64,000 nt of DNA from NCBI RefSeq assembly GCF_030499575.1, contig NZ_JASTLC010000002.1, forward strand, positions 3,296 to 67,295. Direction: 5' to 3'. Made by a program: the position numbers and the translations under genes. This stretch comes from Streptomyces sp. DG2A-72. GTDB lineage: Bacteria; Actinomycetota; Actinomycetes; Streptomycetales; Streptomycetaceae. This document shows positions 9,938 through 28,009 of this stretch, in pieces; within the stretch, counting starts at the first letter, position 1; each line of letters begins with the position of its first letter. Below the pieces are notes generated by a model. It made no database searches, was not told where the DNA came from, and worked only from the letters and a program-made list of their open reading frames with translations.

Positions 9938-12209
9938 TCGGCGCCCCCTCGTCTTCCTTGTCCCCTGCATTCTTGCGAGGGGTGGTGTTGTTCTTCTCCT
10001 GCCATGCCACCCATTCCGCATGCCACGACTTGAGTTCCTCCTCGCTGTAATAGGAGGTCTGGCCGTCGCTCACGCCCTCGGGCGCCTTGATTCCGCGCGC
10101 TTCGCCGCGCTTGAAATAGGTTCGAGTGGTCGATGCCTTCCACGGGAGAATGCCGAGTTGGAACGCGTCGGCGAGGCTGTACGTCTCGGGGAGCTCCTCC
10201 TCCTGGTCCTCGGCCTTGGCGAGCTCCAGCCCGGCGCCGGCGCCTGTCGTGCCGCCTGTCGCGTCGGCTGTCGCGAGGGCCGCTGTCGTGCGCTGTGAGC
10301 TGGGCGTACTCCCCGTGATCCCCAGTGCTCCCGTGAGCACGACAGCGGGCAGGCTGGCCGGGCCGTACTTGCCGCCGGGCAGGAACGCGCCCGTGGCCGC
10401 GGTGGCGTTCACCTCGTCGAGAATCTCGGGCGTGATCCACGGCGCCAGTTGCCCCGCATCGAACCACTCCGGGGCGGGTGCGCATTGAGAAAGAAGTTCC
10501 CGAACCTGCGGCGTGATGTACGAGGGTTGAATCTCGCGAACGTAAACGTGATCGGCATCGGGGTCTTTCCTCTGATCCGTGTAGGCGCCGCGTCCCGGAA
10601 TGCTGGTGTCGTACGGGATAACGGGCGTGCTCTGCCCGAAAGCAACACCCCACGAAATGCGGTCCTGCTGCCCGACTGTCATTTTTGTTCCGATCTGCGC
10701 GCGCTCCATCGTGCCACCGAAAAACGTGTTGGCGAATTGCTGTGAACCGACCACGACACGGTGATCGGAGGAGCGTCCTTGCAGAAGGGTGATAGAGAGC
10801 CAGTCGAGGAAGGGAGGGGTTCCCTTTCCCTTGAGGCCGTAACGCCACCACGTATATGCGAGCTTGATCAATGTGGGGAGCTCGTCAACAACAAGGGTGC
10901 GCGGGATGAGTTGGGTGCGAAGGGCCGGATCGGCTCCCCTTTCCGTGGCTGCCTCGGCGGCCATCATGGAAGTGAGGAACTCGGCGAATGCTGCGACGCA
11001 TTCGCGCACCGTCTTATGAATCCGTACGCCCGAGAACCCTTCCGCCTCGGCGAGAGAGTTCCTCTTGGTGTCGAGGATGTCGATAAGCTCGCCGTGTTGC
11101 CGCCCGTGGACGACCGGAATATAGAGGACGGTCGACTTACCGGAGCCGGTTGCACCAGCCACACCCCAATGCGGTGTGGCGGTTTTCGTGTGCACTTCTA
11201 CATCAACGATTCTGTCACCGTCGATAGCAAGGCCGATGAACACACGGCGGGGGTCACCCGTCGACTTCCACGGGACGTAATCGGGGAGAACGGGCTTAGG
11301 CACGGGCTTGGGCTTGGGTGTCCACCGGACGTAATGCTCTTTGCCGGTCCGGTTCCACTCCGGCACCCATTCACCGGGTACGCGCTGCTCGATAACCCGC
11401 TCAATTGCGGAAACACCTTCGGGTCCGCCCACCCAACTCACGGGGAGGCGGAGGACGATTTCGGCGCCGTCGGCGGTCATGTCGTCAGGGATCGAGAGCC
11501 ATCTCGACCGGCGTTCCCTGTCCTCCATTCGGAGGACTTGCCGGACGGCCGCCCACACGCCGGGGCCGTAGATTTGTCTATCTGTCCACACCGGTTGTAC
11601 GCGCCACAACCCGAGCCCCGAGGGTCCGGTGAACGCTGCCAGATACGCCGTCACGGCGACTGCGATAAGGGCGAGTTGGGTCTCGTCGGGGTAGCGCCAA
11701 AGGCCCCACGCGATCGGCAGGGGCGCCAGGCGGACCGCTGCGCGCGCGGCGTACGGCCATCGGTGCCAGAGGTGCAGGACGCGCCACAAACCCGCCACGG
11801 CGCCGAACAGGGCCCGGACGGGGGCGAGTACGGCGCGGGCGGCACTGCGGGGCCGGTCGGGCTTGTCGAGGGAGACACCGAAGCTGTTGAGGCGGTCGTC
11901 TTTGCCGAGCTGGTCGACGGGCGTCTCGGTGGCCTGGTCGTCGGGCAGCGGGGCGCCGGCATGCCACCACGTGGCCTCGCTGCGCGGTACGGCGACGAGC
12001 TCGCGCCCGCCGACGTACCGGCCGATGCCCGCGGCCAGTGAGCCGAAGAACCGTTCAATGCTGCGGTTGAACTCCTTACGGTCCGCGGGCGTGCCCTGGT
12101 TGGCCAGGACCGCGACCACGACCAGGGCGCCGAGGGCGAGGCCGCCGAGGCTGAATCCGCCGCCCGGGAGACCGTCCACAAGGTCCGGGAGGTCCGGAAG
12201 GGCTTCCAC
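9930..12209 (-). CDS. TcpA-like FtsK/SpoIIIE DNA translocase (coupling protein)
   Basis: 759 residues from a GTG at 12209 (GGGGGA upstream). Membrane segments lie near residues 15-35 and 155-200. The motor domain has Walker A GATGSGKST at about 351 and Walker B LVVDEL at about 439. The C-terminal ~70 residues form a small helical, probably DNA-binding, module containing TRTYFKRGEARG. TcpA/Orf21-type proteins pump DNA to the conjugation channel. It lies upstream of the TcpC-F-like genes, so this block is a nearly complete Tcp-like set; a relaxase is not visible in the window. Its 3' coding region carries a CTGTCG repeat element (10244-10320). Confidence 0.85.
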   Translation of the reverse strand: MEALPDLPDLVDGLPGGGFSLGGLALGALVVVAVLANQGTPADRKEFNRSIERFFGSLAAGIGRYVGGRELVAVPRSEATWWHAGAPLPDDQATETPVDQLGKDDRLNSFGVSLDKPDRPRSAARAVLAPVRALFGAVAGLWRVLHLWHRWPYAARAAVRLAPLPIAWGLWRYPDETQLALIAVAVTAYLAAFTGPSGLGLWRVQPVWTDRQIYGPGVWAAVRQVLRMEDRERRSRWLSIPDDMTADGAEIVLRLPVSWVGGPEGVSAIERVIEQRVPGEWVPEWNRTGKEHYVRWTPKPKPVPKPVLPDYVPWKSTGDPRRVFIGLAIDGDRIVDVEVHTKTATPHWGVAGATGSGKSTVLYIPVVHGRQHGELIDILDTKRNSLAEAEGFSGVRIHKTVRECVAAFAEFLTSMMAAEAATERGADPALRTQLIPRTLVVDELPTLIKLAYTWWRYGLKGKGTPPFLDWLSITLLQGRSSDHRVVVGSQQFANTFFGGTMERAQIGTKMTVGQQDRISWGVAFGQSTPVIPYDTSIPGRGAYTDQRKDPDADHVYVREIQPSYITPQVRELLSQCAPAPEWFDAGQLAPWITPEILDEVNATAATGAFLPGGKYGPASLPAVVLTGALGITGSTPSSQRTTAALATADATGGTTGAGAGLELAKAEDQEEELPETYSLADAFQLGILPWKASTTRTYFKRGEARGIKAPEGVSDGQTSYYSEEELKSWHAEWVAWQEKNNTTPRKNAGDKEDEGAPSA
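10244..10320 (+). repeat. CTGTCG repeat element, copy 1 of 3
   Basis: CTGTCG(C/T)G starts at 10244, 10256, 10268 and 10283 (spacing 12, 12, 15), followed by a tail GCTGTGAGCTGGGCG and CCCC. The same spacing recurs at 57349-57425, and the last two units plus tail recur at 46389-46440. This copy lies inside the TcpA-like coding sequence, near its 3' end. The conserved spacing and tail suggest a protein-binding DNA element rather than a protein constraint. Confidence 0.7.
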
Positions 12210-12309
12210 TGTTCCCCCTTTCTGTCCGCACGCCGCCGAGGGGTGCCCCTTGATCCTCGCGCACGGCTACGACAGACCGCGGCCGGGTTTCTCCCCCAGC
12301 AACAACGGG

Positions 12310-12334
12310 CGCCCGACTCCTGGGGAGTCGGGCG
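12310..12334. terminator. Hairpin terminator after NsdA-like regulator
   Basis: An 11-bp perfect stem (CGCCCGACTCC with GGAGTCGGGCG, loop TGG), downstream of the gene ending at 12409 and upstream of the TcpA-like gene start at 12209. Confidence 0.75.
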
Positions 12335-12408
12335 CGGGCGGGCAGCGGTTCGGGGTGCCGCCGGGAGCGTCGAGGGCGGACTCCCGCGGGCTGAATAGGG
12401 CGGGCCGG

Positions 12409-13749
12409 TCACGTCCTCTGCGCGGCGGGGGCGAGGAGCCTTGCCCGCTCGCTGAGCGCGTGGGCGATCTTGTTCGTGGGGTGCTTGCGGACCGAGCGCC
12501 GGAGGGTGGCGAAATGATCGTCACAGCGTGCAGAGCTGACGTGCGGATAGTCGTCGAGGAAGCCGCTCCACGTCGCGCAGGCCGCTTCGAGGTGGCCGTA
12601 CTCGAACTGTCGCTCGGCGAGGAGGGCCGTCGAGCGGGCCCTCGCCCGGCGTTCGGTCTGCGGCCGGCACCGGTTGGACTCCTCCATTTCGGCGATCGAG
12701 CCGCCGAGGTCGCCGAGCTCGTACAGGACGTGACTGGTGTGGTAGTGCAGGGCGGCCGGGTGGTATCCGCCGACGGTCCCTGACCTCGATGTGGCCTTTT
12801 CGAGGGCGGCCTCGGCCTCCCGGAGTTGCCGTTTCGCGTCGTCCCTGGCACCGACGGCCGCCGAGGCGTGCGCCTGCTGCCCGACGAGGAAAGCCCGCAG
12901 GCGGGGCCCGGCGGCCGGGGCCGCCGCTGCCGCAGCGTCGGCGTACTTGAGTGCGGTCCGTCCGTGGCCGAGGCCGACGGCTTGCACGCTCATGCCACGA
13001 AGTGCGGTGCAGTAGGTGAGGTGGTCGGCGCCTTCTCCGGCCAGTCGTAGGGCCTGCATGTAGTACCGCTGTGCAAGGCCGTGCGCGTTGGCGTCCATCG
13101 CCATCCAGCCGGTGAGGTAGGCGAGATCTGCGGCGGCCGAACACATGGCCTTGCGGGTCTCCTCGGAAGCGTCGCACTTGAGGTACCGGGCGACGGTGTT
13201 CCCGAGGAACGCGGAGGCGAGCGGCCGGACGTGGCTCCCGCCGAACTCGTCGTCGAGGTCTGCGAGGCGGGCGGACATGGCGGTCACGGTGGCTACCTCG
13301 TTGGGGCCGATCCGTGTCCCGGGGGTGGTCTGGGCTCGCCGTGCGCGGTCGACGACGTCCGGCCACCCGGGAACGGCGAGGGTGACCGAGTAGAGGCCGA
13401 CGGCACCGAGCACCGCCCGGCGGGAGGGGTCCATATCTGCACTCCACAGGTCGATAAGGGCGGCCACGGGGTCGGCCTGGTCGGGCGTGGGGGCGTCGGG
13501 TCCGAATCCGGCGGTCGAGCTGGTGATAGTCCTCCCCAGCCGCCGGGACAGACATTCGAGGATCGCCGCCTGTGTGGGGGGCCGGGGGACGGTGCCCTTC
13601 AGCCAGTGCGATACGGCCGTTGTGTCGTACCGGAGACCGAGGCGCATCTCGGTTCCCACGGCGTTGACCTGTCGGGCGAACTTCGCGTTCGTCCAACCGG
13701 TTTCACGGATGAGGCAGAAGAGAGCGATGTTCCGTGTGCGGTCGGGCAT
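12409..13749 (-). CDS. HTH/TPR transcriptional regulator (NsdA-like)
   Basis: 446 residues from the ATG at 13749, preceded by GGGAGGG; an in-frame ATG 33 nt upstream is less likely. The N-terminal HTH (about 8-65) contains TTAVSHWLKGTVPRPP, as in NsdA/XRE-type Streptomyces regulators. From about 100 to 430 there are Ala-rich helical TPR-like repeats (RLAGEGADHLTYCTALRGMS, YADAAAAAAP). The gene is divergent from the RiPP operon starting at 13909 and shares a 159-bp intergenic region with it, so it is the probable cluster-situated regulator. NsdA proteins are known to repress antibiotic production and differentiation; whether this one represses or activates is unknown. Confidence 0.75.
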   Translation of the reverse strand: MPDRTRNIALFCLIRETGWTNAKFARQVNAVGTEMRLGLRYDTTAVSHWLKGTVPRPPTQAAILECLSRRLGRTITSSTAGFGPDAPTPDQADPVAALIDLWSADMDPSRRAVLGAVGLYSVTLAVPGWPDVVDRARRAQTTPGTRIGPNEVATVTAMSARLADLDDEFGGSHVRPLASAFLGNTVARYLKCDASEETRKAMCSAAADLAYLTGWMAMDANAHGLAQRYYMQALRLAGEGADHLTYCTALRGMSVQAVGLGHGRTALKYADAAAAAAPAAGPRLRAFLVGQQAHASAAVGARDDAKRQLREAEAALEKATSRSGTVGGYHPAALHYHTSHVLYELGDLGGSIAEMEESNRCRPQTERRARARSTALLAERQFEYGHLEAACATWSGFLDDYPHVSSARCDDHFATLRRSVRKHPTNKIAHALSERARLLAPAAQRT

Positions 13750-13908
13750 GACGTCCCTCCCCCGGAAATTCAAGGGTTTCAACCCTAGCCCTCTCTCCGG
13801 CCCTAGAGGCGTTCCGCTACCGGGAGTTGACTCTGTGTCAGCCGCTCGGGGGCCGGGAACCGTGGCGCCGGGCGGCGGACACCAAACCGCCGAGACCCCG
13901 GAGGGATC

Positions 13909-14547
13909 ATGGACACGAGCGCGCTCGCGGAACGGCTCCCGGCCCGCACCGCTTGGGAGGACACGGGCACGGTCGTACTGCCCGACGTGCTACCGCCGGA
14001 CCGCTTCAAAGCCTTGGAGGAGGAGGCGCTCGAACGCCTCGACCTGGTCACGCCGCATGTGCACGACCACACCGCCGCCCACCGTGACGGTTCGTTCGCG
14101 ACGCCGGTTCACTGCGGTTTCATCCCGCCGGGCCCGGTGCTCGAACAGCTCGCGTACGACAAGCCGCTACTGATGGCGCTACGGGAGGCGACCGGCATCC
14201 CGCGCCTGATCCCCCGGGGCGGGGCCGTCGTCCTCTACCGGCAGGGCGACTTTCAGGGGCTCCACACGGACTCGTCGAAGAGCACGGTCACGGTCGGTAT
14301 CGCCCTGACGCCGGACCTCCCGCCGATGGGGTGGGCGCCGCATCTGCGCCACCCGGACGGCCGCCAACTCGCGGACGTCGTCGCCGAGTTCGGCATGTTC
14401 CCGGAGGGGCCGCAGTTCACGACGCTGCCCCACCCCTACAACGACGGCAGCGTGAGGGCCTTCGCCGGGTACCACTTCGCGCACTGGCGGCCTCCGCTGC
14501 CGGCGGAGGCGGGTCTCCTCGTCACCATGTCGTTCATGGACCTGTGA
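13909..14547 (+). CDS. Fe(II)/2-oxoglutarate-dependent oxygenase (RiPP cluster, first paralogue)
   Basis: 212 residues, about the length of small prolyl-4-hydroxylase-type oxygenases. The facial triad is His119-x-Asp121 (GLHTDSS) with distal His192 in AHWRPP; Arg194 or a nearby Arg could bind 2-oxoglutarate. It is a paralogue of the next gene: both have a TP-x-L-x-x-MGW-x-P-x-LR segment shortly after the HxD motif. First gene of an operon with a RiPP precursor, YcaO and TfuA, so the likely substrate is the precursor peptide, with hydroxylation of a side chain such as Pro, Asp, Asn or His. The substrate is inferred from context. Confidence 0.8.
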   Translation: MDTSALAERLPARTAWEDTGTVVLPDVLPPDRFKALEEEALERLDLVTPHVHDHTAAHRDGSFATPVHCGFIPPGPVLEQLAYDKPLLMALREATGIPRLIPRGGAVVLYRQGDFQGLHTDSSKSTVTVGIALTPDLPPMGWAPHLRHPDGRQLADVVAEFGMFPEGPQFTTLPHPYNDGSVRAFAGYHFAHWRPPLPAEAGLLVTMSFMDL

Positions 14548-15167
14548 TGGAGGCCGGAACCCTGCGGCGGACATGGCTCGCCCAGGGCCGGGCGGACGTG
14601 CCGGCCGACGCGATCGAGGCGGGCCTCTGGGAGGAGCTCGCCGAGGAGGCCGAGCGGCTGGAGCCGGTCGCGGCCGTCCGGCACAACCAGCGGCCGGGCC
14701 TCCTGGCGATGCGGGACGGGTCGATCACGAGTCCGCAGCGCTGCACTGTCCACCCCGGCGCGGCGGCGCTGCGGGCCCTCGCGCAGTCCAAGGCGCTCGC
14801 GGACGTGGCGGCCGAGGCGACCGGCGCCGCGAAGATGACGGCGATCCGCTTCGGATACAAGTTCTACAAGCCCGGCGACTACATGCACGTTCACCGCGAC
14901 GACGGGAAGTGCGAGATCACGTTCAGCGCCGCCCTGACGCCCGGCCTCGGGTCCATGGGGTGGCTGCCGAACCTGCGATGGCTGACGACCGAGGAGGTTG
15001 TCGAGCGGCTCGCCGATACGCCGTACCCGAACGGCGACGCGTTTCCCGTGCAGTACCGGGCCCTGACCGGATTCGACGGGTCCCGGATTCCCCACTGGCG
15101 TACCCCGCTCGATGGCCAATCGCGCGAGGTGCTGGTCACCGTCTGCTTCACCGATCTGTCGGTGTAG
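14547..15167 (+). CDS. Fe(II)/2-oxoglutarate-dependent oxygenase (RiPP cluster, second paralogue)
   Basis: 206 residues. The ATG at 14547 overlaps the upstream stop codon (TGATG). The triad is His116-x-Asp118 (VHRDD), with distal His183 and Arg185 in IPHWRTPL. It shares the MGW-x-P-x-LR block and C-terminal layout with the preceding gene but is clearly diverged, so the two probably modify different residues or act in sequence. It ends 32 bp before the precursor gene and is in the same operon. Confidence 0.8.
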   Translation: MEAGTLRRTWLAQGRADVPADAIEAGLWEELAEEAERLEPVAAVRHNQRPGLLAMRDGSITSPQRCTVHPGAAALRALAQSKALADVAAEATGAAKMTAIRFGYKFYKPGDYMHVHRDDGKCEITFSAALTPGLGSMGWLPNLRWLTTEEVVERLADTPYPNGDAFPVQYRALTGFDGSRIPHWRTPLDGQSREVLVTVCFTDLSV

Positions 15168-15199
15168 CAGCAACCGCTACGAGTTCCGAGGAGGAACCC

Positions 15200-15364
15200 A
15201 TGCCCGTGTCCCAGTCCGTGACCGCCGCCGTTCCGGCGGACCCGGCCGACTTCATCGGCGAACTGCACGCCGAGGGCGCCATGCCGCAGAACAGCGGCGG
15301 TGACCCGGCCGTCCCCGACTCGGCGTTCCCCGACGTCCACACCTACGTGGTGCCGGCCGCCTGA
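15200..15364 (+). CDS. RiPP precursor peptide (54 aa)
   Basis: 54 residues, with a strong GAGGAGG ribosome-binding site 5 nt before the ATG. No Cys. The N-terminal ~28 residues are helical and acidic, with DFIGELHAEGAM at 17-28 as a plausible leader recognition element. The C-terminal part is rich in Pro, Asp, Ser and Val and ends in TYVVPAA, with His47 and Tyr49. It lies between two oxygenase genes and YcaO/TfuA, the usual place for a precursor. The core boundary is not certain; a Pro/Gly-rich region at 29-40 may separate leader and core. Without Cys, classical thiazole formation is impossible; thioamide, oxazoline (Ser/Thr) or hydroxylation remain open. Confidence 0.78.
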   Translation: MPVSQSVTAAVPADPADFIGELHAEGAMPQNSGGDPAVPDSAFPDVHTYVVPAA

Positions 15365-15392
15365 CCGGCGGACCGGTAGTCGGTAGCTGATC

Positions 15393-15435
15393 GGCCCGGC
15401 CGCCCGGACGCCTCCCCGCGTCCGGCGGCCGGGCC
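15393..15435 (+). terminator. Hairpin between precursor and YcaO genes (probable attenuator)
   Basis: An 18-bp GC-rich stem with one bulge (GGCCCGGCCGCC... against ...GGCGGCCGGGCC) and a 6-nt loop, in the 98-bp gap after the precursor stop. A partial terminator here would give more precursor mRNA than enzyme mRNA, a common arrangement in RiPP operons. Confidence 0.65.
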
Positions 15436-15462
15436 TCGCCGTCCCCGAGAGGAGAGTCGTCC

Positions 15463-16665
15463 ATGCGAAAAGTGTTCTTCGACGGCGCCCACCGCACCCG
15501 CCATCCCGGCGAGACGTGGGCCGCGCTCCGGCCGCTGCTCGCGGTCTACGGCATCACCCGCGTTGCCGACGTGACCGGGCTCGATGACCTCGGTATCCCC
15601 GTCACGATGGCCGTGCGGCCCCTGGCCCGGACGCTGAGCGTCGCGCAGGGCAAGGGGGCGACATTGGACGCCGCCCGGGTGTCCGGCGCGCTGGAGGCCG
15701 TCGAGGCGTGGCACGGTGAGCGCGCCGTGCCCTCGGTGGTCGAGCGGGCCCCGGCCGAAGCCCTGCGCCTGCCGTATCCGGTGGCCGCGTTGGAGACGCA
15801 CCCCGGCTCTTTACTGACCCCTCGTACGGTGCTGGACTGGATCACCGCCCGCTCGGCGGTCGACGGCACCACCGTGCCGGTGCCGGCCGCGTGCGTGCGG
15901 CTCGGCCGGGAGACTCACGGCCGGTGGCGGCTGCACCTGCCGAGCGCGTCGACCAACGGCCTCGCCTCCGGCAACACGACGGCCGAGGCGGTCGCGCACG
16001 CGCTGTACGAGGTGATCGAGCGGGACGCGGTCAGCAACCTGACCAGCCCCGCCCCCGAGGGCCGCCCGCAGCGCATCGACCCGGGCAGCGTGAGCGATCC
16101 GCACTGCGCGAACCTGATCGAGCGCACCCAACAGGCGGGCGCATGGCTGGAGTTGTGGCACCTGCCGAGCCGCTTCGGCGTGCCGGTGATGAGCGCCTAT
16201 CTGTGGCGCGAGGACCAGGCCGCGCTCCTGGTCTCCGGGTCAGGGGCGCACCTTGACCCGCGCATCGCCCTGTCCCGGGCGGTCACCGAGGCCGCACAGT
16301 CCCGGCTGACGGCGATCACCGGGAGCCGTGAGGACGTCCACCCGGCCACCTACCGGAACGGTGGGCACCAGGGCCCCGGCGGCGCGGCCGAGCCGGGCGC
16401 CGACTGGGGGCCGATCGCTTCCCGGTACGCCGCAGGGTTCGACACCCACGAGCGCGAGGTCGCGCACCTGGCCGCCCGCGTCGCGAGCGTGACCGGCGCG
16501 GCCCCGCTGGTCGTCGACCTGACGCACGGCCCGTACGAGACCGGCGGAGTGTTCTCGGTCGTCAAGGTCGTTGCGCCGCACCTGCGGTACGACTCCCGGC
16601 ACGTCATCCCCCGCCCGCGGCAGGAGCGCACCAGCGCCCGCCCGAGTCAGGAGGCCGCAGCGTGA
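15463..16665 (+). CDS. YcaO-family ATP-dependent backbone-modifying enzyme
   Basis: 400 residues with a GAGGAGA ribosome-binding site. YcaO ATP-binding motifs are visible: S-x-x-x-E-x-x-E-x-W (SGALEAVEAW, 74-83), N-G-x-A-S-G-N with the following helix to ERDA (165-189), and the RAVTEAAQSRL helix (about 268-278). YcaO enzymes activate a peptide amide oxygen with ATP to form azolines, amidines or, with TfuA, thioamides. The C-terminus (about 378-400) lacks a Pro-x-Pro-x-Pro end, and no E1-like or ocin-ThiF partner is present, which argues for a thioamide- or amidine-type rather than an azole-type pathway. It is translationally coupled to TfuA by a 4-bp GTGA overlap. Confidence 0.9.
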   Translation: MRKVFFDGAHRTRHPGETWAALRPLLAVYGITRVADVTGLDDLGIPVTMAVRPLARTLSVAQGKGATLDAARVSGALEAVEAWHGERAVPSVVERAPAEALRLPYPVAALETHPGSLLTPRTVLDWITARSAVDGTTVPVPAACVRLGRETHGRWRLHLPSASTNGLASGNTTAEAVAHALYEVIERDAVSNLTSPAPEGRPQRIDPGSVSDPHCANLIERTQQAGAWLELWHLPSRFGVPVMSAYLWREDQAALLVSGSGAHLDPRIALSRAVTEAAQSRLTAITGSREDVHPATYRNGGHQGPGGAAEPGADWGPIASRYAAGFDTHEREVAHLAARVASVTGAAPLVVDLTHGPYETGGVFSVVKVVAPHLRYDSRHVIPRPRQERTSARPSQEAAA

Positions 16666-18050
16666 GCACCGTCCATGTCTTCTCCGGCCCGACCCTGCCG
16701 GCCGCCCGTGTCGGCGAGCTCCTGCCCGGCGCGGTGTGGCATCCGCCGCTCGCGCACGGGGACCTGTTACGGCTCGACACCGCACCCGGCGACACGGTCG
16801 TGATCATTGACGGGGTGTGGCACCAGCGCGCGCCCGTGCGGCACAAAGAGATCTTGTTGTTGCTGGCCGAGGGGGTTCGGGTGGTCGGCGCGGCGAGCAT
16901 GGGCGCGCTGCGGGCCGCCGAGCTCGCGCCGTACGGAATGACCGGCGTCGGGCGCGTCTTCGAGGACCTGGCGGCCGGGGTGCTGGACGCCGACGACGAC
17001 GTCTCCGTACTGCACACTCCCGAGGGACAGCCGGTGTCCGAGGCCCTGGTGAACATCCGGGCCGCGCTCCTCCGGTGTGCGGCGGCCGGGCAGATCAGCG
17101 AGACCGACGCCGGCACGCTCGAAGCGCTCGCCCGCGCACTGCCCTACACCCGCCGCACATGGGCCGCGCTCGCCCACCGGGCCCGCGAGGAGGGAGCGGG
17201 CGCCGCGTTCGCCGCGGTCGACGGGTGGCGTCGGCGCAATCCGTACGACGTGAAGCGGGAGGACGCGGAGCGCGCCCTCGTCCTGGTCGGCGCGGGCGGC
17301 CCGCCGGAGCCCGAGGGCGCGGCGCGGGAGTGGGAGCGGGAGCCGTGGCGGACGTCGTTCGTGCGGTACTGGACGGCGGCACACCGCCCCGGCCCCGGTG
17401 GTGTGCCGTTCCTCGCGGTGCTCCAACACCAACAGCTCTACGACGCCGAATTCCCCGCCCGGTGGCGAACCCGGGTTCTGTCAGCTGTGGCCGGAGAGGA
17501 CATCGGCCCGGACGGGGTCGAGGCCGCCGCGCTGCGTGCCACGGCGGCCGAGGGGGTCGACGTGAGCGCCCTGTCCCGGCAACAGCTCGGATACTGGCTC
17601 GCTCCGGTCGAGCTGCGGGCGCTTCCGCCGGGTGAGGCGCTGCTCCGGATCGTGGTCCGCTCGGCCCGGCTGGATGGCGCGTGGTCGGTGTGGCCGTCGA
17701 GCCGGGCCGAGGCCGGGGAGCTGGTCGACGACGCGTTGCCGACGGCGGAGGACGTCGCCGCGGCGTACGCCGTGAATGCGGCCGTCGAGGCGGCCGACCA
17801 CCGCCACACGATCGCCCGCCTGTCCGCCGACCGCATCGGCGGGCACCTCGCCGCCCGGTGGAACCTCCCGGCGTGCGCGGGGCGGCCGGTGCTGGACGCT
17901 GCGGCTCGCGACCGCGGATTCCGTGACTTCGGCGGGGCGGTCGAGGTCGCCCGCGCGTTCTACCTCGGCGCCCGTGCGGACACTCCGGCGGTCTCCGTCG
18001 GGACCGGCTCGTGTGCGGACTGCCCGGCCAGGGCCAAGGCCCGAACCTGA
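16662..18050 (+). CDS. tfuA: TfuA-like protein with long C-terminal extension
   Basis: 462 residues from a GTG at 16662. The TfuA core (about 1-215) has the family signatures ASMGALRAAEL (78-88), GMTGVG (92-97) and DDDVSVLH (111-118). TfuA partners YcaO in thioamide formation (thioviridamide-type and archaeal McrA thioglycine pathways), probably by handling sulfur delivery or allosteric activation. The extra ~245 residues (215-462) are helical, contain HQQLYDAEFPARW and end with a CADCP motif; their role is unclear. The last 91 bp overlap the convergent exporter gene. Confidence 0.88.
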   Translation: MSTVHVFSGPTLPAARVGELLPGAVWHPPLAHGDLLRLDTAPGDTVVIIDGVWHQRAPVRHKEILLLLAEGVRVVGAASMGALRAAELAPYGMTGVGRVFEDLAAGVLDADDDVSVLHTPEGQPVSEALVNIRAALLRCAAAGQISETDAGTLEALARALPYTRRTWAALAHRAREEGAGAAFAAVDGWRRRNPYDVKREDAERALVLVGAGGPPEPEGAAREWEREPWRTSFVRYWTAAHRPGPGGVPFLAVLQHQQLYDAEFPARWRTRVLSAVAGEDIGPDGVEAAALRATAAEGVDVSALSRQQLGYWLAPVELRALPPGEALLRIVVRSARLDGAWSVWPSSRAEAGELVDDALPTAEDVAAAYAVNAAVEAADHRHTIARLSADRIGGHLAARWNLPACAGRPVLDAAARDRGFRDFGGAVEVARAFYLGARADTPAVSVGTGSCADCPARAKART

Positions 18051-19372
18051 CGGATCAGCAGCGGCACCACCGCGGCAAGCACGATCACCAGGGCGCCGCC
18101 CGCGAGGGTCGCGCGGACTCCGACGGCGCGGGAAACCGGGCCCGCGAGGAGGTAGCCGAACGGTACGGGAACGAGCTGCCCGAGCGTCGAGTACGACAGT
18201 GCCCGGCTCAGCCGGTCGGCCGGGATGCGTTCCTGTACCAGCCCGGACCATACGGTCATACTGACGGCGAGACCGGTCCCGGCCGCCGCCGTCGCGGCGA
18301 CGAGCACCGGCAGCGGGGCGGCGGCGGCCATCGCAGCAAGCGGCAGCGCGAGCGACCCGGTACCCGCGCACACCACCCGGCCGACCAGCCGGGGCCGCCA
18401 CATCAGCGCGACGGCGGCCCCGGCCACCAGCCCGGCCGTGAACCCGGAGACAACGAGGCCCCACAGTCCGGCGCCGCCAAGGAACCGCGCACCGTAGACC
18501 GGGCCGAGGAGTTGGTACCCGACCAGCCACACCGGCACGACGAGCGCGCCTTGTACGACCATCACCCACAGCCAGCGGCGGGAGCGGAAGTCGGTCCAGC
18601 CGTCGCGCAGATCGGCCAGGAACCCCGCCTTCACCTTCACCGCGCCCGGCTTGAGGTCAATCCGGGCGAACAGGACGGCGGAGGCCGCGAAAGTCAGCGC
18701 GTCCCATCCGATGGCCCAGGCCGACCCGAACACAGCGACGAGGAGACCGCCGATGGCCGGGCCGCTGACCTTGACGAGGTTCTGCGCGATCTTCAGGAGG
18801 GCGTTCGCCGCGTGCCGGGCTTCGGCCGGCACCACTTCCTTGACGATGCCGCCCGCGGCCGGGGTGAAGAACGCCGAGGCCGCGCCGCAGATCCCGGACA
18901 TGAGCACCAGGTGCCACACCCGGGCCGTGCCGGACCACAGCAGCGCCGCGGCGAGGGCCTCGGCGAGCGCGCACACGATGTTGGACCACACCATGACCCG
19001 GTGGCGCGGGAGCCGGTCGGCGACGACTCCGCCCACCAGGAGTAGAAGGATCTGCGGGGCGACGCTCGCCGCGAGGACCAGGCCGAGCGCGCCCGCTCCC
19101 CCGCCGATGTGCAGTACCGCGAAGGCGAGGGCGATCGGCGAGACCGCCGATCCGGTCCACGACAGCACACGTGCGGTGAAGTGCAGCCGGTACGGGCGGA
19201 CCGCGAGGGGCGCCCCCGCTTCCCGGACGCGCGCCGCCCAACCAATCCGGGGACCAGGCCCCGCCGTCCAGTTCAGCAGTCGCGCTTTCCGCAAGATCCA
19301 ACTCCGCCCAGGAACAACGAAATCCCGGCGGCGAGGCGCCACCGGGAAGGCTGCCCCGACTCTAGGGCACAC
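17960..19372 (-). CDS. MFS efflux transporter (RiPP exporter or self-protection)
   Basis: Up to 470 residues from the GTG at 19372; the true start is uncertain and may be the TTG near residue 27, since the first transmembrane helix begins only at about residue 68. About 12 membrane helices are visible, with an MFS motif A-like loop GGVVADRLPRHR after helix 2 and a cytoplasmic break near residues 245-260. It resembles the EntS/MFS_3 exporters. Convergent with the RiPP biosynthetic genes, it is the likely exporter of the mature product or a resistance determinant. Substrate inferred from position only. Confidence 0.8.
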   Translation of the reverse strand: MCPRVGAAFPVAPRRRDFVVPGRSWILRKARLLNWTAGPGPRIGWAARVREAGAPLAVRPYRLHFTARVLSWTGSAVSPIALAFAVLHIGGGAGALGLVLAASVAPQILLLLVGGVVADRLPRHRVMVWSNIVCALAEALAAALLWSGTARVWHLVLMSGICGAASAFFTPAAGGIVKEVVPAEARHAANALLKIAQNLVKVSGPAIGGLLVAVFGSAWAIGWDALTFAASAVLFARIDLKPGAVKVKAGFLADLRDGWTDFRSRRWLWVMVVQGALVVPVWLVGYQLLGPVYGARFLGGAGLWGLVVSGFTAGLVAGAAVALMWRPRLVGRVVCAGTGSLALPLAAMAAAAPLPVLVAATAAAGTGLAVSMTVWSGLVQERIPADRLSRALSYSTLGQLVPVPFGYLLAGPVSRAVGVRATLAGGALVIVLAAVVPLLIRQVRALALAGQSAHEPVPTETAGVSARAPR

Positions 19373-19565
19373 GAAAGATCATCTGTCGCAGACGCAACAG
19401 CCTGCGCCCGGAGAACTCCAGTCCAGCCGGATACCGCCCCCAACGCGCAGCGTCAGCGGTCACAGATGACCGGCGGGGACACCGAAGGGGACAGCATCCG
19501 TCACGACGGCCGGAGCTGTACGGGCGCGCCCGGCTCCTGGGGCCGGGCACGCGAGGGGCGGTGGG

Positions 19566-20120
19566 TCAGGATGCTGGCGGGAGTGCGTCGAGGGCGAGCT
19601 CCCACGGGTAGGCGTCGAGGTTGCCGCGGCCGGGCGGGTGGGGGGCGTACCCGGGCCCGCTCTGGCCGTCGTCGAGGAGCACGGTCACGCCTGCCTCGCG
19701 CAGCTCGGCGACGCTGCGCCGGACGGCCGGGTGCCGGTCCTGGGCATCGTTCCAGTGCGGGAGGGCAACGATGTGCAGCCCCTTGCCGATGCCCTCGGTG
19801 ATCAGGCCGAGGGCGAGCGTGTCACTGATGCCGGCGGCCCACTTGTTGAGCGAGTTCGAGGTGAGCGGGGCGACGAGGAGCGCATCCGGGGCGGGCAGGA
19901 CATCAGGCTCCGAGGGGAGCTTGTAGGAGTGCCGGACGGGGTGGCCTGTCAGCTCGCGGAGTTCGTCGAGGTTGCCCCCGGGGTCCTCCGTCATCCATCG
20001 GTGGGCGTCCGGGGTGAGGATGAGGCAGACGTCCCAGCCCGATTTTTGCGCGGCGCGAATGGGGATGGTGAGGCGTCGGGCGGGCGGGGCGGCGCAGGCG
20101 ATCACGTACAGAGTTTTCAC
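19566..20120 (-). CDS. HFCD-type flavoprotein
   Basis: 184 residues. A Rossmann-like N-terminus (LYVIACAAPPA) and the flavin-binding APLTSNSLNKWAAGISDTLA segment (about 83-102) place it in the homo-oligomeric flavin-containing Cys decarboxylase (HFCD) superfamily, near phosphopantothenoylcysteine decarboxylase-like proteins. The ATG overlaps the upstream XRE-TPR gene by 4 bp, so the two are one operon. HFCD enzymes occur in some RiPP pathways, but the precursor here has no C-terminal Cys, so use by the adjacent cluster is doubtful. Flavoprotein plus XRE-TPR pairs are known in Streptomyces; the reaction is unknown. Confidence 0.75.
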   Translation of the reverse strand: MKTLYVIACAAPPARRLTIPIRAAQKSGWDVCLILTPDAHRWMTEDPGGNLDELRELTGHPVRHSYKLPSEPDVLPAPDALLVAPLTSNSLNKWAAGISDTLALGLITEGIGKGLHIVALPHWNDAQDRHPAVRRSVAELREAGVTVLLDDGQSGPGYAPHPPGRGNLDAYPWELALDALPPAS

Positions 20121-21358
20121 GTGGGCAGTCCACAGCGTGCGGCGAGCGCCCGCAAGCGGCCCTCAGCCGAACCGGCCCCCAAGAGTCGTAAGTCGTCGAC
20201 GAGTTGCCGGGTCCGGGGCCGACACCGGACCTCTTCCTCTGCCTCCCGCTCGGCGTCGAGGAGGGCGTCGACCGCCTCGACACGGCGTCCCGCCTGCGTG
20301 AGCCCGTGGGCGAGATCGGTAAGGAGGTGGGCGCGGCGCTCTTTGGGCAGCGCGGCGCGGCTCGGGTTGGGGATGGCGTGGGCGACTGCGACGGCGTCCG
20401 CGCCTGCGCTGAGCTGGACGTGTGCGGCGACGCGGTACAACTTCGCGTTGGTGGGCCCGAATGCGGTCCACAGGCTGTTGCCGTCGAACCCGAGCTCGTC
20501 GGCGTGCTGGTCGGCCTGGTCGAGGAGGTCGGGGACCGCGCGGGCCGCCGCGGCGGCCCGGGTGTCGTCGAGTGCGGCGGCCGTGGCCTGCGCCATGGCG
20601 GCTTTGAGGTACAGCATGCCCAACACTGAGGTGCCGTCCTCGCCGCGGGTGCGCAAGTGGGGTCCGAGGCGGGCGGCGGCGCTGATGGCGAACTCGGCGG
20701 CGGCGTGGGGTTGGCCGTGCATGGTCATGGCGTCGGCGAGGTGACGCGCGGCCGATGCCATGTTGACGGGGTCCTCGGACCGCTCGGCGGCGGCCACGGC
20801 GCGGTGTCCGGAGACGAGCGCGAGGTCGGTATCGCCGTACTTGATCGCCGCGCCCTCGATGAGTTCGAGGGTGAAGGAGAGGAGCCGGAAGGCTTCGAGC
20901 TGGTCCTCGTGCTGGTGGCGGGCGGCGGCGCGGTTGGTGTCGACGAGGAGCTCGGGGACGAGCCGCCCGAGAGACGCGAAATGCCCCGCTTGAAAGGCGG
21001 ATCTGGCATGGTCGAGGCGGCCGTGTAGGACCGTGACGGGGAGCGGGTCGGTGCCGTCGTCGTCCACCGCTCCCGTGATCACGTCGTGCCGTTGCAGGGT
21101 CCGGCGAATCACGTTGAGCTCGAACGAGTCCAGGCATTTGACCGCCGGAGCGGTGGAGAGGAACACCCCGACGTCGACTTGCAGTACGCGGGCCGCGCGC
21201 TCGACCACGGAGAGATTGGGGTCGCGCTGCCGTTCGCCTCGCTCGACGTCTTGGGCCCATCTGCGGGACTGTCCCATCAGGCGGCCGAAGACTTCTTGCG
21301 TCATGCGGCGGCGCTCTCGCCAGTAGGCGACACGACGCCCGAACTCCTGCGCGTCCAT
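20117..21358 (-). CDS. XRE-family regulator with TPR-like C-terminus
   Basis: 413 residues from the ATG at 21358 (GGAG 8 nt upstream); an ATG at 21364 is an alternative. The N-terminal XRE HTH is at about 5-65 (RRRMTQEVFGRLMGQSRRW), followed by ~340 residues of Ala-rich helical repeats typical of TPR-type Streptomyces regulators. It is divergent from the gene at 21438, with a 17-bp palindrome in the shared promoter region. The same palindrome lies before the 22221 operon, making this protein the natural candidate to bind both. Confidence 0.8.
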   Translation of the reverse strand: MDAQEFGRRVAYWRERRRMTQEVFGRLMGQSRRWAQDVERGERQRDPNLSVVERAARVLQVDVGVFLSTAPAVKCLDSFELNVIRRTLQRHDVITGAVDDDGTDPLPVTVLHGRLDHARSAFQAGHFASLGRLVPELLVDTNRAAARHQHEDQLEAFRLLSFTLELIEGAAIKYGDTDLALVSGHRAVAAAERSEDPVNMASAARHLADAMTMHGQPHAAAEFAISAAARLGPHLRTRGEDGTSVLGMLYLKAAMAQATAAALDDTRAAAAARAVPDLLDQADQHADELGFDGNSLWTAFGPTNAKLYRVAAHVQLSAGADAVAVAHAIPNPSRAALPKERRAHLLTDLAHGLTQAGRRVEAVDALLDAEREAEEEVRCRPRTRQLVDDLRLLGAGSAEGRLRALAARCGLPT

Positions 21359-21386
21359 GGACATTGCTCCGGGCCGGAATCATGAT

Positions 21387-21403
21387 GCACGCACTTTGCG
21401 TGC
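21387..21403. promoter_or_regulatory. Palindromic operator 1 with leaderless promoter
   Basis: GCACGCA-ctt-TGCGTGC, with a -10-like TACCGT 22 nt downstream (21426-21431) and the ATG at 21438 six nt further, so the transcript is probably leaderless. The same geometry is repeated at 22169-22221. Confidence 0.72.
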
Positions 21404-21437
21404 CTACAGTCCGTTGTACGCCCTCTACCGTCCAGAT

Positions 21438-21902
21438 ATGGCCGAGTCCAAGGAAACCGCTTGTAAGTGGGCCGCGTTCGTCTCCCCAAACGACGCGACC
21501 GCCGTCGAGCTGCGCTTGGCCGAGAGCTCTGCAATGAGGTTCGCGCCCTGCGGCATTCAGTGGGATGCCGTCGTGATCGCTCCTCTTGAGCGCGGCCTCG
21601 CCGCCCTCGATGTTCTCGGCCTACCGCAGGACGAGGGGCATCCCGTGTTCGCCGACTACTACAAACAAGAGCTGATCGTGCAGGTTCGAGCCGGGACCGC
21701 GGCCGATCAGTTCGAGGACGTCCAAGGCGTCCGCCCGCTCTCGCGCGGAGGGTGGGTCATGGTCCCCAACATGGGGGCCGGAACGACGCATGCCGCATGG
21801 ATCAGCCGTCCAACTTCCTGGGAAGTGCGCTACGTTGACGCCACCGCGTTGCGCGAGGCACTCCTCATGGCCGACAGACTCGGCGTGCCTGCGCGCTGCT
21901 GA
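21438..21902 (+). CDS. Hypothetical protein, leaderless, under palindrome control
   Basis: 154 residues from the ATG at 21438; no ribosome-binding site, but a TACCGT hexamer 6 nt upstream suggests a leaderless message. A longer reading from 21357 would run through the palindrome. The protein is soluble alpha/beta with a conserved-looking WDAVVIAPLERGLAALDVL segment (about 42-60), and faintly resembles small Streptomyces proteins related to prim-pol N-terminal domains; this is not firm. Probably controlled by the divergent XRE-TPR regulator. Confidence 0.7.
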   Translation: MAESKETACKWAAFVSPNDATAVELRLAESSAMRFAPCGIQWDAVVIAPLERGLAALDVLGLPQDEGHPVFADYYKQELIVQVRAGTAADQFEDVQGVRPLSRGGWVMVPNMGAGTTHAAWISRPTSWEVRYVDATALREALLMADRLGVPARC

Positions 21903-21945
21903 ACCCCTCGGACAGCTCCCCCCGTGGCTGTCCGAGGTCCCCTCA

Positions 21946-21983
21946 CCGCCCCCGGAGCCTCCGCGCCTTGGCTCCGGGGGCGG
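21946..21983. terminator. Hairpin terminator
   Basis: A 14-bp stem, CCGCCCCCGGAGCC with GGCTCCGGGGGCGG, 10-nt loop, just after the gene ending at 21902. The stretch 21903-22220 has no gene. It also holds a shorter hairpin (GGACAGC/GCTGTCC, about 21910-21933), another GC-rich hairpin (about 22055-22093), the second 26-bp repeat and the second palindrome. Confidence 0.75.
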
Positions 21984-22126
21984 CCCCTTTTCCAGCGGTG
22001 GCGGCCGTCCTGCAGAACGGTCGGCGCCCGGGAGAGGACGCCGTATCCTGGGGGCGGGCCTCCGGTGATTTGAGCACCGGGGGCCCGCCATCGTTCCCGG
22101 CCCCATCAGCCCCGCCATTCGCTCGG

Positions 22127-22152
22127 CTCATCTTTTATGAGCTGGGGACATA
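22127..22152 (+). repeat. Dispersed 26-bp repeat, copy 2 of 3
   Basis: CTCAT/ATGAG arms with a 5-nt spacer, then CTGGGGACATA, matching 7736-7761 and 52424-52449. It lies 17 bp before the palindrome at 22169. Confidence 0.8.
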
Positions 22153-22168
22153 TGGAGTAGACCGACAA

Positions 22169-22187
22169 GGCACGCACATTGCGTGCC
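22169..22187. promoter_or_regulatory. Palindromic operator 2 with leaderless promoter
   Basis: GGCACGCA-cat-TGCGTGCC. TACCGT at 22209-22214 and the ATG at 22221 repeat the spacing seen at 21387-21438 base for base in distance. Confidence 0.75.
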
Positions 22188-22220
22188 ATCCTCGGGTCCG
22201 ACTGCCCTTACCGTCCCGTC

Positions 22221-22673
22221 ATGGCGCATGTACCCAACGGCACGCCGCACCCCGAAGGGGGCGGTTCCGTGCATCTTCCAGTCGTACGCGGCTCCACCGA
22301 GTCCGCGGTCAAGTCGCCCCGAATCGGCGGCAGGCCGCCCCTGTTCGCTACGGATCTCGTTCGCACCCTCGACGTGGCCCGAGACGTCGTGAGCGGGCTC
22401 GGCGACGAGGAGACGAGCGACGTCTCGGTGTCCGCCCTTACCGCCCTGGTGTGCACGGGCGCGACTCCGGCCGACGCGCTCCAAGCGGCGGCCGATGCCG
22501 CTCGGCGCGCCCCCACTCTTGAGCCCCACGGCCTCTCGCTCGCCCGCACACCCGGGCCGGTCGAGGACATGTGGGAGTACACGCTCACCATGACCGTCAG
22601 CACGCGCGACCCGCTGACCGGCGAGTGCGGCGGCCACACCCACCACGGCGACCAGCCGAGGAGCAAGCCGTGA
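22221..22673 (+). CDS. Hypothetical protein, first gene of palindrome-controlled operon
   Basis: 150 residues from the ATG at 22221, probably leaderless. Helical middle (about 45-110) with Ala-rich segments; the C-terminus is hydrophilic and contains GGHTHHGDQ. No family recognised. It is coupled by GTGA to the next gene. Confidence 0.65.
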   Translation: MAHVPNGTPHPEGGGSVHLPVVRGSTESAVKSPRIGGRPPLFATDLVRTLDVARDVVSGLGDEETSDVSVSALTALVCTGATPADALQAAADAARRAPTLEPHGLSLARTPGPVEDMWEYTLTMTVSTRDPLTGECGGHTHHGDQPRSKP

Positions 22674-22936
22674 GTTCGACGGCCCGCACGTATCGGCTCC
22701 GGGAATTCGACGTCACCACTCAACCCGGCGTCAACGCAGACGAGTTGGCCTACCCCGAGTTTCAGGCGGTGTGCATCACGGGGGACGATGACGCGTGCGG
22801 CCAGACGTCCGGCATGGTCGAGGGCGTCGCCGAGGTCACCGAATGGATGGCGAGGCACACGCGGGACACCGGACATCAGCAGTTCCGGCACGCGTATTGG
22901 GTGTACGTCACAGTCGAGCCGGGGGCGTGGAAGTGA
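22670..22936 (+). CDS. DUF7848-like small protein
   Basis: 88 residues from the GTG at 22670 (GTGA overlap). The pattern TYRLREFDV ... EFQAVCI ... ACGQTSG ... WMARHTRDTGHQQFRH resembles the DUF7848 family, common in Streptomyces beside XRE/TPR regulators. Two Cys and several His could bind a metal. The function of the family is unknown. Confidence 0.7.
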   Translation: MSSTARTYRLREFDVTTQPGVNADELAYPEFQAVCITGDDDACGQTSGMVEGVAEVTEWMARHTRDTGHQQFRHAYWVYVTVEPGAWK

Positions 22937-23076
22937 TGGTGACCGACGAGCGGCGGGCGAAGCTGTGGAAGCGCGCCGAGCGAATACGGATGGGGTTCGA
23001 CGCGGTCCGCCTGACGCGCGAGGCCCTCGCCCGAGAGCGCGAGCAGCAGCTCGCAGCGAGCGCGCCCCCCAGGTAG
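22936..23076 (+). CDS. Small basic protein, end of palindrome-controlled operon
   Basis: 46 residues from the ATG at 22936 (TGATG overlap). Rich in Arg, Lys and Glu and probably a single amphipathic helix pair (RRAKLWKRAERIRMGFD). No family recognised; the coupling and the terminator just after support it as a real gene. Confidence 0.6.
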   Translation: MVTDERRAKLWKRAERIRMGFDAVRLTREALAREREQQLAASAPPR

Positions 23077-23094
23077 CCCGCCCCACCACATGCC

Positions 23095-23134
23095 GGCGCC
23101 CGGCTCCCTATCGACGGTCAGGGAGTCGGGCGCC
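23095..23134. terminator. Bidirectional hairpin terminator
   Basis: A 15-bp near-perfect stem (GGCGCCCGGCTCCCT with AGGGAGTCGGGCGCC) between convergent genes. Confidence 0.8.
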
Positions 23135-23152
23135 TTTGTCTGTGCGGGCGGG

Positions 23153-23494
23153 TCAGTCTCCGCCGCCTCGGCCGTCGTCCGTCTCAGACCGGTCGGCGCT
23201 CTTACCGAGTCGGACACCGGCGAGCCCAAGGCCCCCTTGCAGAAGGGCCGTTACGAGGATCGCTACGGCCCAACCGCCGAAGAACAGGCCGCACAGAAGG
23301 CCGCCGAGGGTGAGGACGACGAGGAGGGCGGCGAGGACCGAGGCGTACGACGGTGCGGAGTGCCAGCCGCGTAGCGCGACCATGCCGCCGCTCCCGACGA
23401 TCACGGCCAGCACACACAAGGCGGTGCGGAGCAATGCGAATCGAAGTGCTGTCCAGGCGTCCCGTACGGTGCGCCCGTCCCCCCGTGTGGTCAT
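23153..23494 (-). CDS. Small polytopic membrane protein
   Basis: 113 residues with three to four hydrophobic helices (about residues 18-40, 48-66, 66-95) and an acidic C-terminus. The frame ends 18 bp before the terminator. No family recognised. Confidence 0.6.
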   Translation of the reverse strand: MTTRGDGRTVRDAWTALRFALLRTALCVLAVIVGSGGMVALRGWHSAPSYASVLAALLVVLTLGGLLCGLFFGGWAVAILVTALLQGGLGLAGVRLGKSADRSETDDGRGGGD

Positions 23495-23559
23495 GTCAGA
23501 GCCTCCCTGTTCCGCCGCAAGCCTAGATCGGCTCCGCTTGGCGCTGCGGTCGGGAGCGG

Positions 23560-24105
23560 CTAGTCCTGCTCGACCGCGGGGCGGACTTCGCGGAGTGGCC
23601 GCTCCCGGTCCGGATAGAGCGGGGTCTCGTCGGCGAGCTCGGGGAACTCGTCAAGCGGGCTGATCTCGCACCGCTTGCCGTACAGCTCGGCCCACCGGAT
23701 GGCGTCCCGCAATGACCACTCACGGCGGAGGAGGAGCCGCTCCTCGACGATCCACACAACCCAGTCGCCGCGCCCGTTGCGGCGGCGGTACCAAAGGAGC
23801 GCCAGGACCAGGGCGACGGCGCCCTCGAACACAGCCCAAGGCAGCAGAGCGAATCGGGAGACCGGCAGCGCCCAGGCCAGGAGGAGGGCGAGGACCGCCC
23901 CGGTTGCCCAGGCGATCCAATGGGCGTACGGCCGCGGGGGGACGGTGCGCCGGTACGCCATGAGGGCGCCGCCAAGCATCCCGGCCGCGAACCACACGGG
24001 CGCGGTGCTGCCGGTGCCGGCGGCGAGCACCACGCACACCGTGGCGCCGCCGAGGAGTCCGCCCGCTATCCGTCGATCTTGGCCGCGGTCGGTGTCCTGC
24101 GTCAT
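23560..24105 (-). CDS. Membrane protein with cytoplasmic C-terminus
   Basis: 181 residues: four hydrophobic segments between about residues 12 and 105, then a 75-residue hydrophilic tail with WVVWIVEERLLLRREWSL. No signature recognised. It lies in a run of minus-strand accessory genes. Confidence 0.6.
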   Translation of the reverse strand: MTQDTDRGQDRRIAGGLLGGATVCVVLAAGTGSTAPVWFAAGMLGGALMAYRRTVPPRPYAHWIAWATGAVLALLLAWALPVSRFALLPWAVFEGAVALVLALLWYRRRNGRGDWVVWIVEERLLLRREWSLRDAIRWAELYGKRCEISPLDEFPELADETPLYPDRERPLREVRPAVEQD

Positions 24106-24156
24106 CTACTGGTCCCCCTCTGGGATCGTCAGCGGTAAGGGTGCCATGTCACGGCG

Positions 24157-24186
24157 GAGCGCCCGCCCCATGCAGGGCGGGCGCTC
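24157..24186. terminator. Hairpin terminator
   Basis: A 12-bp perfect stem GAGCGCCCGCCC/GGGCGGGCGCTC downstream of the gene ending at 24206. Confidence 0.78.
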
Positions 24187-24205
24187 GAACGTCCGGACGC
24201 GCGGG

Positions 24206-25147: not shown

Positions 25148-25219
25148 GTGAGTGTCCTCCTGTCGGCGAGTCTGGGCTCGCGTGGGGTGTAACGAGTTCG
25201 GCGTACGCGCCGAACCGCG

Positions 25220-25256
25220 GAGCCCCCCGCCCCCATGATGAGCGGGGCGGGGGGCT
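25220..25256. terminator. Hairpin terminator
   Basis: A 14-bp or longer stem GAGCCCCCCGCCCC with GGGGCGGGGGGCTC; downstream of the RapZ-C-like gene. Confidence 0.8.
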
Positions 25257-25283
25257 CGGTCTGGGAATTGAGGCAGGCGTCTT

Positions 25284-26311: not shown

Positions 26312-26315
26312 GGGG

Positions 26316-26900: not shown

Positions 26901-26972
26901 GTCGGGTTGGTCCTCTCGGTCCGGTCGGTGCCGGGGCCTGGTGGCCCCGGCCGGGGTGCGCTGTGGCTGGAG

Positions 26973-27338: not shown

Positions 27339-27471
27339 GTGCGGTGTTCCTCCGGGGTGTTGGGGTCGTGGGCGGTGCTGTGGGATGGCCCGAGTTGACC
27401 CGGCGCCGGCACGTGCGGGACATGCCGGACCGCGACGACTCGACGCGTCGCACGGCGGGTACTGCGGGAGG

Positions 27472-27948: not shown

Positions 27949-28009
27949 GGGGATGGTTCCCTTCGGCAGGGGCCGGGGCCTCTGTGCGAGGCCCCGACGG
28001 TGCGTGCGG

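Follow-up and report, generated by a model that had tools for sequence, protein, structure and literature searches.

The YcaO–TfuA peptides whose chemistry is known belong to a handful of classes, and the available part of PMC13174530 gives the characterised ones as thioviridamide-like peptides, thiovarsolins, thioamidated thiopeptides and chimeric lanthipeptides. In the thioamitides (thioviridamide, thiostreptamide S4; tsa cluster), according to the accessible portion of PMC8153245, the YcaO protein TsaH and the TfuA protein TsaI are accompanied by TsaJ, a 2-oxoglutarate (2OG) oxygenase of family PF05721 which beta-hydroxylates His, and a figure legend in PMC8120280, itself available in part, places a phytanoyl-CoA dioxygenase gene in some YcaO–TfuA clusters. 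In the std cluster, YcaO–TfuA thioamidates Asn, after which a multinuclear non-heme iron-dependent oxidative enzyme (MNIO) hydroxylates (PMC13174530, same portion), and for survey supplements at least 15 predicted families are given (PMC6511847, in excerpt). The locus described here lies in 64,000 nucleotides of DNA from Streptomyces sp. DG2A-72, hereafter called the window, on a plasmid-like contig of 67,295 bp (C2) belonging to a 10.6-Mb genome in 3 contigs. From 12409 to 19372 it carries, in this order, genes for a regulator, two oxygenases (OxA and OxB), a precursor peptide, YcaO, TfuA and a major facilitator superfamily (MFS) protein. We read it as a mobile cassette for a ribosomally synthesised and post-translationally modified peptide (RiPP), which would make a thioamidated, oxygenase-modified product, both modifications being predicted; we give this reading a probability of about 0.68. 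The features are as follows.

12409–13749, reverse strand: NsdA-family regulator resembling tetratricopeptide-repeat proteins, divergent from the operon (NCBIfam NF053720, E 1.1e-124, over the cut-off).
13909–14547, forward strand: OxA, 212 amino acids (aa), predicted 2OG/Fe(II) oxygenase with H119-x-D121 ... H192.
14547–15167, forward strand: OxB, 206 aa, paralogue of OxA with H116-x-D118 ... H183 (alignment A4 and tree).
15200–15364, forward strand: precursor peptide gene, 54 aa, with putative leader region DPADFIGELHAEG and putative core PQNSGGDPAVPDSAFPD, AGGAGG upstream.
15393–15435, forward strand: GC-rich stem-loop of 18 pairs between the precursor gene and ycaO, from folding.
15463–16665, forward strand: YcaO, 400 aa, stand-alone (PF02624, E 3.9e-64; MJ1094, 6pe3, E 1.1e-26).
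16662–18050, forward strand: TfuA, 462 aa (PF07812, E 3.6e-41; 6xp8, E 1.4e-64; AlphaFold2 model with a predicted local distance difference test score (pLDDT) of 90.9).
17960–19372, reverse strand: MFS transporter, convergent (PF05977, E 1.5e-27; start codon uncertain).

The five biosynthetic genes lie within about 4.1 kb, stop and start codons overlap at OxA/OxB and at YcaO/TfuA, each of OxA, the precursor, YcaO and TfuA has a purine-rich ribosome-binding site in front of it, and the MFS gene overlaps tfuA tail to tail by 91 nt (17960–18050). The layout is that of the preliminary description, in which a 54-aa peptide gene stood between paralogous oxygenases and a YcaO–TfuA pair, with a divergent NsdA-like regulator at the front and a convergent exporter at the end.

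Like the thioamitides, the cassette combines YcaO, TfuA and 2OG-Fe(II) oxygenases with a small precursor (PMC8153245, in part). Unlike them, it has no core Cys (0 of 26 precursors), hence no aminovinyl-methylcysteine (AviMeCys) macrocycle; no phosphotransferase, HopA1-like protein, decarboxylase or His methyltransferase was recognised when its seven proteins were scanned against Pfam and NCBIfam, which is the scope of the family scans here; its two oxygenases have no PF05721 match over the cut-off, its precursor is different, and it has an MFS protein and an NsdA-type regulator. Membership of the thioamitides was therefore rejected on account of the Cys-free precursors and the lack of macrocycle genes. 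With the std cluster of Streptomyces thermodiastaticus the cassette shares a YcaO–TfuA pair beside a conserved core motif, an iron enzyme and an MFS protein, but the std cluster uses an MNIO and its RiPP recognition element (RRE) partner rather than 2OG enzymes, has the core SNKEWQE and encodes a peptidase–carbamoyltransferase fusion (PMC13174530, available part); neither an MNIO enzyme nor an RRE partner was found among the seven proteins. Thiovarsolins (var cluster) likewise come from Streptomyces with YcaO, TfuA and MFS proteins, whereas they have a repeating precursor, the heme-oxygenase-like VarO, an amidinotransferase and an ATP-grasp ligase (PMC6511847, in the excerpt); no VarO-like heme-oxygenase protein is present among the seven, and the precursor has a single core. 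As for the classical thiazole/oxazole-modified (azole) RiPPs, their ThiF or ocin-ThiF partner and flavin dehydrogenase are absent from the seven proteins, as had been noted beforehand, and the core is not rich in Cys, Ser or Thr.

The suggestion that no described family has this gene set has to be narrowed, since YcaO, TfuA and a 2OG oxygenase together are known from the thioamitides (PMC8153245, in part); the novelty rests instead on the precursor, the oxygenase pair and the lack of macrocycle genes, which fit none of the families found. No description of the cassette was found in literature titles and abstracts, a search outside which the survey supplements lie, so that an earlier listing there is possible. 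The main texts of two surveys, as far as they were available (PMC6511847, PMC8120280), have no mention of davaonensis, griseoruber, oxoglutarate, ketoglutarate or hydroxylase, and literature searches for the core motif found nothing.

The precursor carries much of the argument. A protein search gave 26 proteins including the window's own, all at E <= 1.1e-11, in which 21 positions are invariant and Cys is absent throughout, so the observation of a Cys-free precursor extends to its relatives. The single core is near-invariant, PQNxGGDP(A/S)VPD, and all loci have in common a leader motif near DPA(D/E)FxxxLHxxG and the longer core motif PQNxGGDP(A/S)VPDx(A/S)F. Changes are seen at Ala37 and Asp45 in the precursors of loci L075 and L078, and at Ser41 (to Lys), Pro44 and His47 in the most divergent one, that of L101. 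Over the 18 loci defined below, the ratio of nonsynonymous to synonymous changes per site (pN/pS), from uncorrected counts under strong codon bias, is 0.16 for 12 core codons, 0.64 for 15 leader codons and 0.50 for all 36 codons; read in its other two frames, the same 36-codon stretch gives 1.02 and 3.02. Ungapped DNA identity is 0.7–0.9 over most of the precursor frame and about 0.3 on either side of it. That is to say, the core is constrained at the protein level, and its near-invariance argues for one fixed function of the product.

The 18 loci compared are the window, 4 of 43 YcaO-relative loci, 4 of 6 plasmid regions and 9 loci from genome samples; they were selected because their YcaO or oxygenases are similar, and two come from one genome (G159). 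The order OxA–OxB–precursor–YcaO is kept in all of them, with the precursor frame at the same place each time, and TfuA is present in 17, the contig of L101 stopping after ycaO. The homology and neighbourhood check proposed with the preliminary description thus finds the 54-aa frame conserved with YcaO in 18 of 18 loci and with TfuA in 17. A chance open reading frame was considered and is ruled out by the 26 relatives, the in-frame constraint and the constant placement. Fifteen loci have the MFS gene, in 14 of which it overlaps tfuA tail to tail by 79–100 nt (in L104 there is a gap of 1,062 nt), and an NsdA relative at E<=1e-4 occurs in 9 of the 18, the window counted. Distant YcaO relatives were rejected as members, 39 of the 43 loci (YcaO identity <=53%, several of them short contigs) having no OxA, OxB or precursor at E<=1e-2; the other four (L002–L005, YcaO identity 66–92%) carry all three. 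The cassette is almost surely a real, conserved RiPP pathway.

The precursor of this pathway would have its leader in the DPADFxxxLHxxG region and a core, PQNxGGDPAVPDxxF, that hardly varies. Using ATP, YcaO would activate at least one backbone amide, and TfuA would bring sulfide from thiocarboxylated ThiS, yielding a thioamide in the core, for which the Asn31/Gly33/Gly34 stretch is our guess. OxA and OxB would hydroxylate core residues, most plausibly in the invariant D35-P36...P39-D40 stretch; a protease encoded elsewhere in the genome would cut off the leader, and the MFS protein may export the product or protect the host. The sites and order of these steps are likewise putative. Thioamidation of the product is likely, and hydroxylation of the peptide by the oxygenases is likely too. 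In addition, the cassette as a whole would be self-contained and able to move between Streptomyces replicons, plasmids as well as chromosomes. With a small size and a sharply defined Cys-free core, it could allow the sites of thioamidation and of oxygenase action to be mapped cleanly, and it makes a promising candidate for a bacterial peptide natural product of a new kind.

OxA and OxB, which have no family match in Pfam or NCBIfam, are a previously unnamed oxygenase family and the most interesting part of the cassette, for whose members the precursor would supply a substrate. They were previously described as two paralogous HxD oxygenases, and this holds: they are 34% identical, fall into separate clades of the tree (support 98/97 for OxA and 94/93 for OxB, the latter below the tool's star) and both keep the HxD motif. 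The predicted structure of OxA (pLDDT 94) has the double-stranded beta-helix fold of 2OG/Fe(II) oxygenases, which OxB shares as judged by its homology to OxA; the iron triad of OxA (H119, D121, H192) is invariant in alignment A3, and in OxB the corresponding residues in alignment A4 are H116, D118 and H183. Arg59, Lys124 and Arg194 are candidates for binding the 2OG carboxylate in OxA. Among the nearest in fold to the OxA model are the halogenases BesD, HalB and HalA, the epimerase SnoN and a hydroxylase; the pair may thus desaturate, epimerise, halogenate or close a ring in a thioamidated peptide, though this is clearly less probable than hydroxylation. The HxD aspartate kept in both OxA and OxB counts against halogenation in particular, as radical halogenases of the BesD kind lack this aspartate, another residue having replaced it. 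BesD-like lysine 2OG halogenases and hydroxylases, moreover, act on free amino acids and are about 14–19% identical to the cassette enzymes in aligned parts.

The link between the oxygenase and thioamidation is drawn most directly by fusions. In each of two genomes, G290 and G230, OxA has a single match, which forms the C-terminal end of a TfuA protein (708 aa and 719 aa, respectively). A search with the fused domain gave five proteins (P0091–P0095), of which P0091 and P0093 are these two. P0091–P0094 are 708–719 aa long, all with the TfuA domain PF07812, and P0095 (461 aa), also with PF07812, covers 73% of the query domain. The four fused domains placed on the tree nest inside the OxA clade, near L075 and L078, which ties the oxygenase to thioamidation; the fusions are the strongest evidence that the oxygenase works with thioamidation enzymes. 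The G290 and G230 loci have in common a 3.6-kb island, 87% identical (L073 6640–10292 and the matching stretch of L074 on the reverse strand), and, within the stretches compared, only one further shared piece, of about 0.5 kb. The island holds a 33- or 32-aa peptide gene, a stem-loop, YcaO and the TfuA–oxygenase fusion; its peptide differs from the 54-aa precursor, ends in ALG(T/S)GTFVACSAE and contains Cys. It seems that joining to TfuA brought the oxygenase to a second peptide, and the fusions offer a one-protein handle on a possible coupling of sulfur insertion and oxidation. A bolder proposal, which we put forward as speculation, is that OxA and OxB form a new family of RiPP oxygenases acting in a thioamidation complex, with the thioamide gating hydroxylation or coupled with it, hence the fusion to TfuA; the cassette would then give one fixed product, a thioamide with hydroxylated Asp or Pro, nearly unchanged across plasmids and bacterial families and closer in character to a peptide that binds metal or serves as a signal than to an antibiotic that diversifies.

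As for the YcaO–TfuA pair, both proteins exceed their family cut-offs (PF02624 and PF07812), and YcaO matches MJ1094. TfuA consists of an N-terminal TfuA domain (about 1–210) and an all-helical C-terminal region; the former matches the Methanosarcina thioamidation protein 6xp8 and keeps Ser79 and Lys198, and a search with the full length gives 6xp8 alone at E<=0.001, aligned across 216 columns. These matches support the attribution of the pair to the thioamidation kind. A Ser–Lys pair hydrolysing thiocarboxylated ThiS is described in the accessible part of PMC13185837, and Lys198 may be the Lys of that pair. With four ThiS-family matches over the cut-off, the window's own genome has a sulfur carrier available.

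YcaO proteins as a family show diverse chemistry, and the one here might perform a reaction other than thioamidation (amidine, azoline or lactam formation), with TfuA as another kind of helper. This finds a point of support in distant relatives of OxA and OxB (hhalign probability 98.3 to the family), which lie beside a YcaO in two genomes from a single genus (L099 and L100): L099 9376–13934 encodes a fused azole-type YcaO, a Nif11-leader peptide, a ThcOx/nitroreductase protein and the divergent relative, and the YcaO and dehydrogenase genes of L100 look like those of L099, to which the family scan of these two was confined. In L098 a third distant relative has a prolyl oligopeptidase as its neighbour, and the 19.9 kb covered there contain no YcaO match. 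The presence of TfuA, a thioamidation partner with its Ser79 and Lys198 in place, a core without Cys and the occurrence of Lys for Ser41 in L101 make such a reaction improbable.

Still less probable is a diverged thioamitide (thioviridamide-like) pathway, in which a TsaJ-like oxygenase would hydroxylate His47. The His-hydroxylating TsaJ provides the precedent, the core of the window's precursor contains HTY, and 6 of 53 members of the OxA alignment match PF05721 weakly (best E 0.0069), this being the sole route by which OxA and TsaJ were compared; neither OxA nor OxB itself matches. Besides the 26 Cys-free precursors, which preclude an AviMeCys ring, and the lack of the kinase, HopA1, decarboxylase and methyltransferase families, L101 keeps both oxygenases yet has no His47. 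That the pair modifies a cellular protein, as YcaO–TfuA does with McrA in methanogens and a YcaO with a ribosomal protein (PMC5589413, PMC13063428, both in part), and that the 54-aa frame encodes a small protein unconnected with it, is hardly credible: at all 18 loci the small frame lies inside the operon, its core constrained and its N-terminus variable, and both fusion cassettes have a small peptide gene at the same place.

Several points weigh against the cassette being a thioamidating and oxygenating RiPP pathway. The closest NCBIfam kin of YcaO and TfuA are the McrA-thioamidation models, with clear scores below their cut-offs; neither a leader-binding (RRE) protein nor a protease was recognised among the cassette proteins; and the last strand of OxA has no conserved Arg or Lys in alignment A4, the residue that binds 2OG not being located. 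L075 and L078 have no MFS relative, and OxA fragments stand without YcaO in 2 of 392 Streptomyces genomes. In L002, moreover, an interruption of about 0.8 kb divides the MFS match (L002 10513–12690), and in L102 the YcaO match runs in two frames (L102 8843–10001), so that the cassette need not be intact in every copy.

In the Streptomyces sample OxA was matched in 11 of 392 genomes, seven with OxA and OxB, two with a fusion and two with fragments only. Isolated OxA fragments were observed at L080 7470–7821 and L081 7430–7636, with no YcaO match of note, and are perhaps remnants of a lost cassette. A mixed oxygenase profile matched 6 of 394 genomes of the class sample (3 of these by distant relatives only) and 5 of 200 of the family sample (in 1 case a fragment where the contig stops); both counts include the window's own genome and G754. 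G159 and G886 each have two copies of the cassette oxygenases at opposite ends of a long contig (L078, L102 and their second copies), as expected for the terminal inverted repeats of linear chromosomes.

A GC-rich hairpin between the precursor gene and ycaO is found at all 18 loci, and a stem-loop is also present in both fusion cassettes. Folding-energy z is <= -2 in 15 of the 18 and weaker in L075, L076 and L078; the ycaO start of L076 and L101 was not found, so 130 nt were folded, and the stem of L101 was taken from the energy fold, as automatic trimming chose another helix. In alignment A8 (17 hairpins; L103 omitted, its trimmed letters being identical to those of L102), 90.8% of 283 cells pair, a value reached by 1 of 500 shuffles, as against 31.7–48.3% in slid controls; the covariation score was reached in 11 of 500. 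Covariation was rejected as proof of the stem-loop: both-side changes (3 pairs) were matched in 271 of 500 shuffles, and true covariation is weak. Rfam gave nothing above the gathering score across 12300–19500. The stem-loop may act as an attenuator or messenger-RNA stability element and so permit more peptide than enzyme.

On its left the cassette is flanked by a plasmid backbone that carries conjugation genes and has 88% identity to plasmid unnamed2 of Streptomyces sp. NBC_01136. Part of the same backbone occurs in an S. albidoflavus plasmid, where the cassette is absent from positions 12000–30000, beside the transfer genes, and the plasmids with the same cassette differ from the window in flanking DNA. 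A literature search for pZL1 gave nothing relevant. The PF02441 flavoprotein at 19566–20120 adjoins the cassette and was rejected as a member, being found in 1 of 17 other loci; among the loci compared it is common only to the window and the NBC_01136 plasmid, and the helix-turn-helix regulator gene beside it (both within 19566–21364) was judged together with it. Outside the 18 loci, an S. anulatus plasmid (H3) is among the search matches, and in L006 and L008 a short gene-finder run showed no clear further cassette genes. Finally, a plasmid cluster possibly related to the std cluster was noticed at L049 3709–10471; there, TfuA, YcaO and MFS genes are accompanied by genes for a carbamoyltransferase, a methyltransferase and a JmjC_2-type protein.

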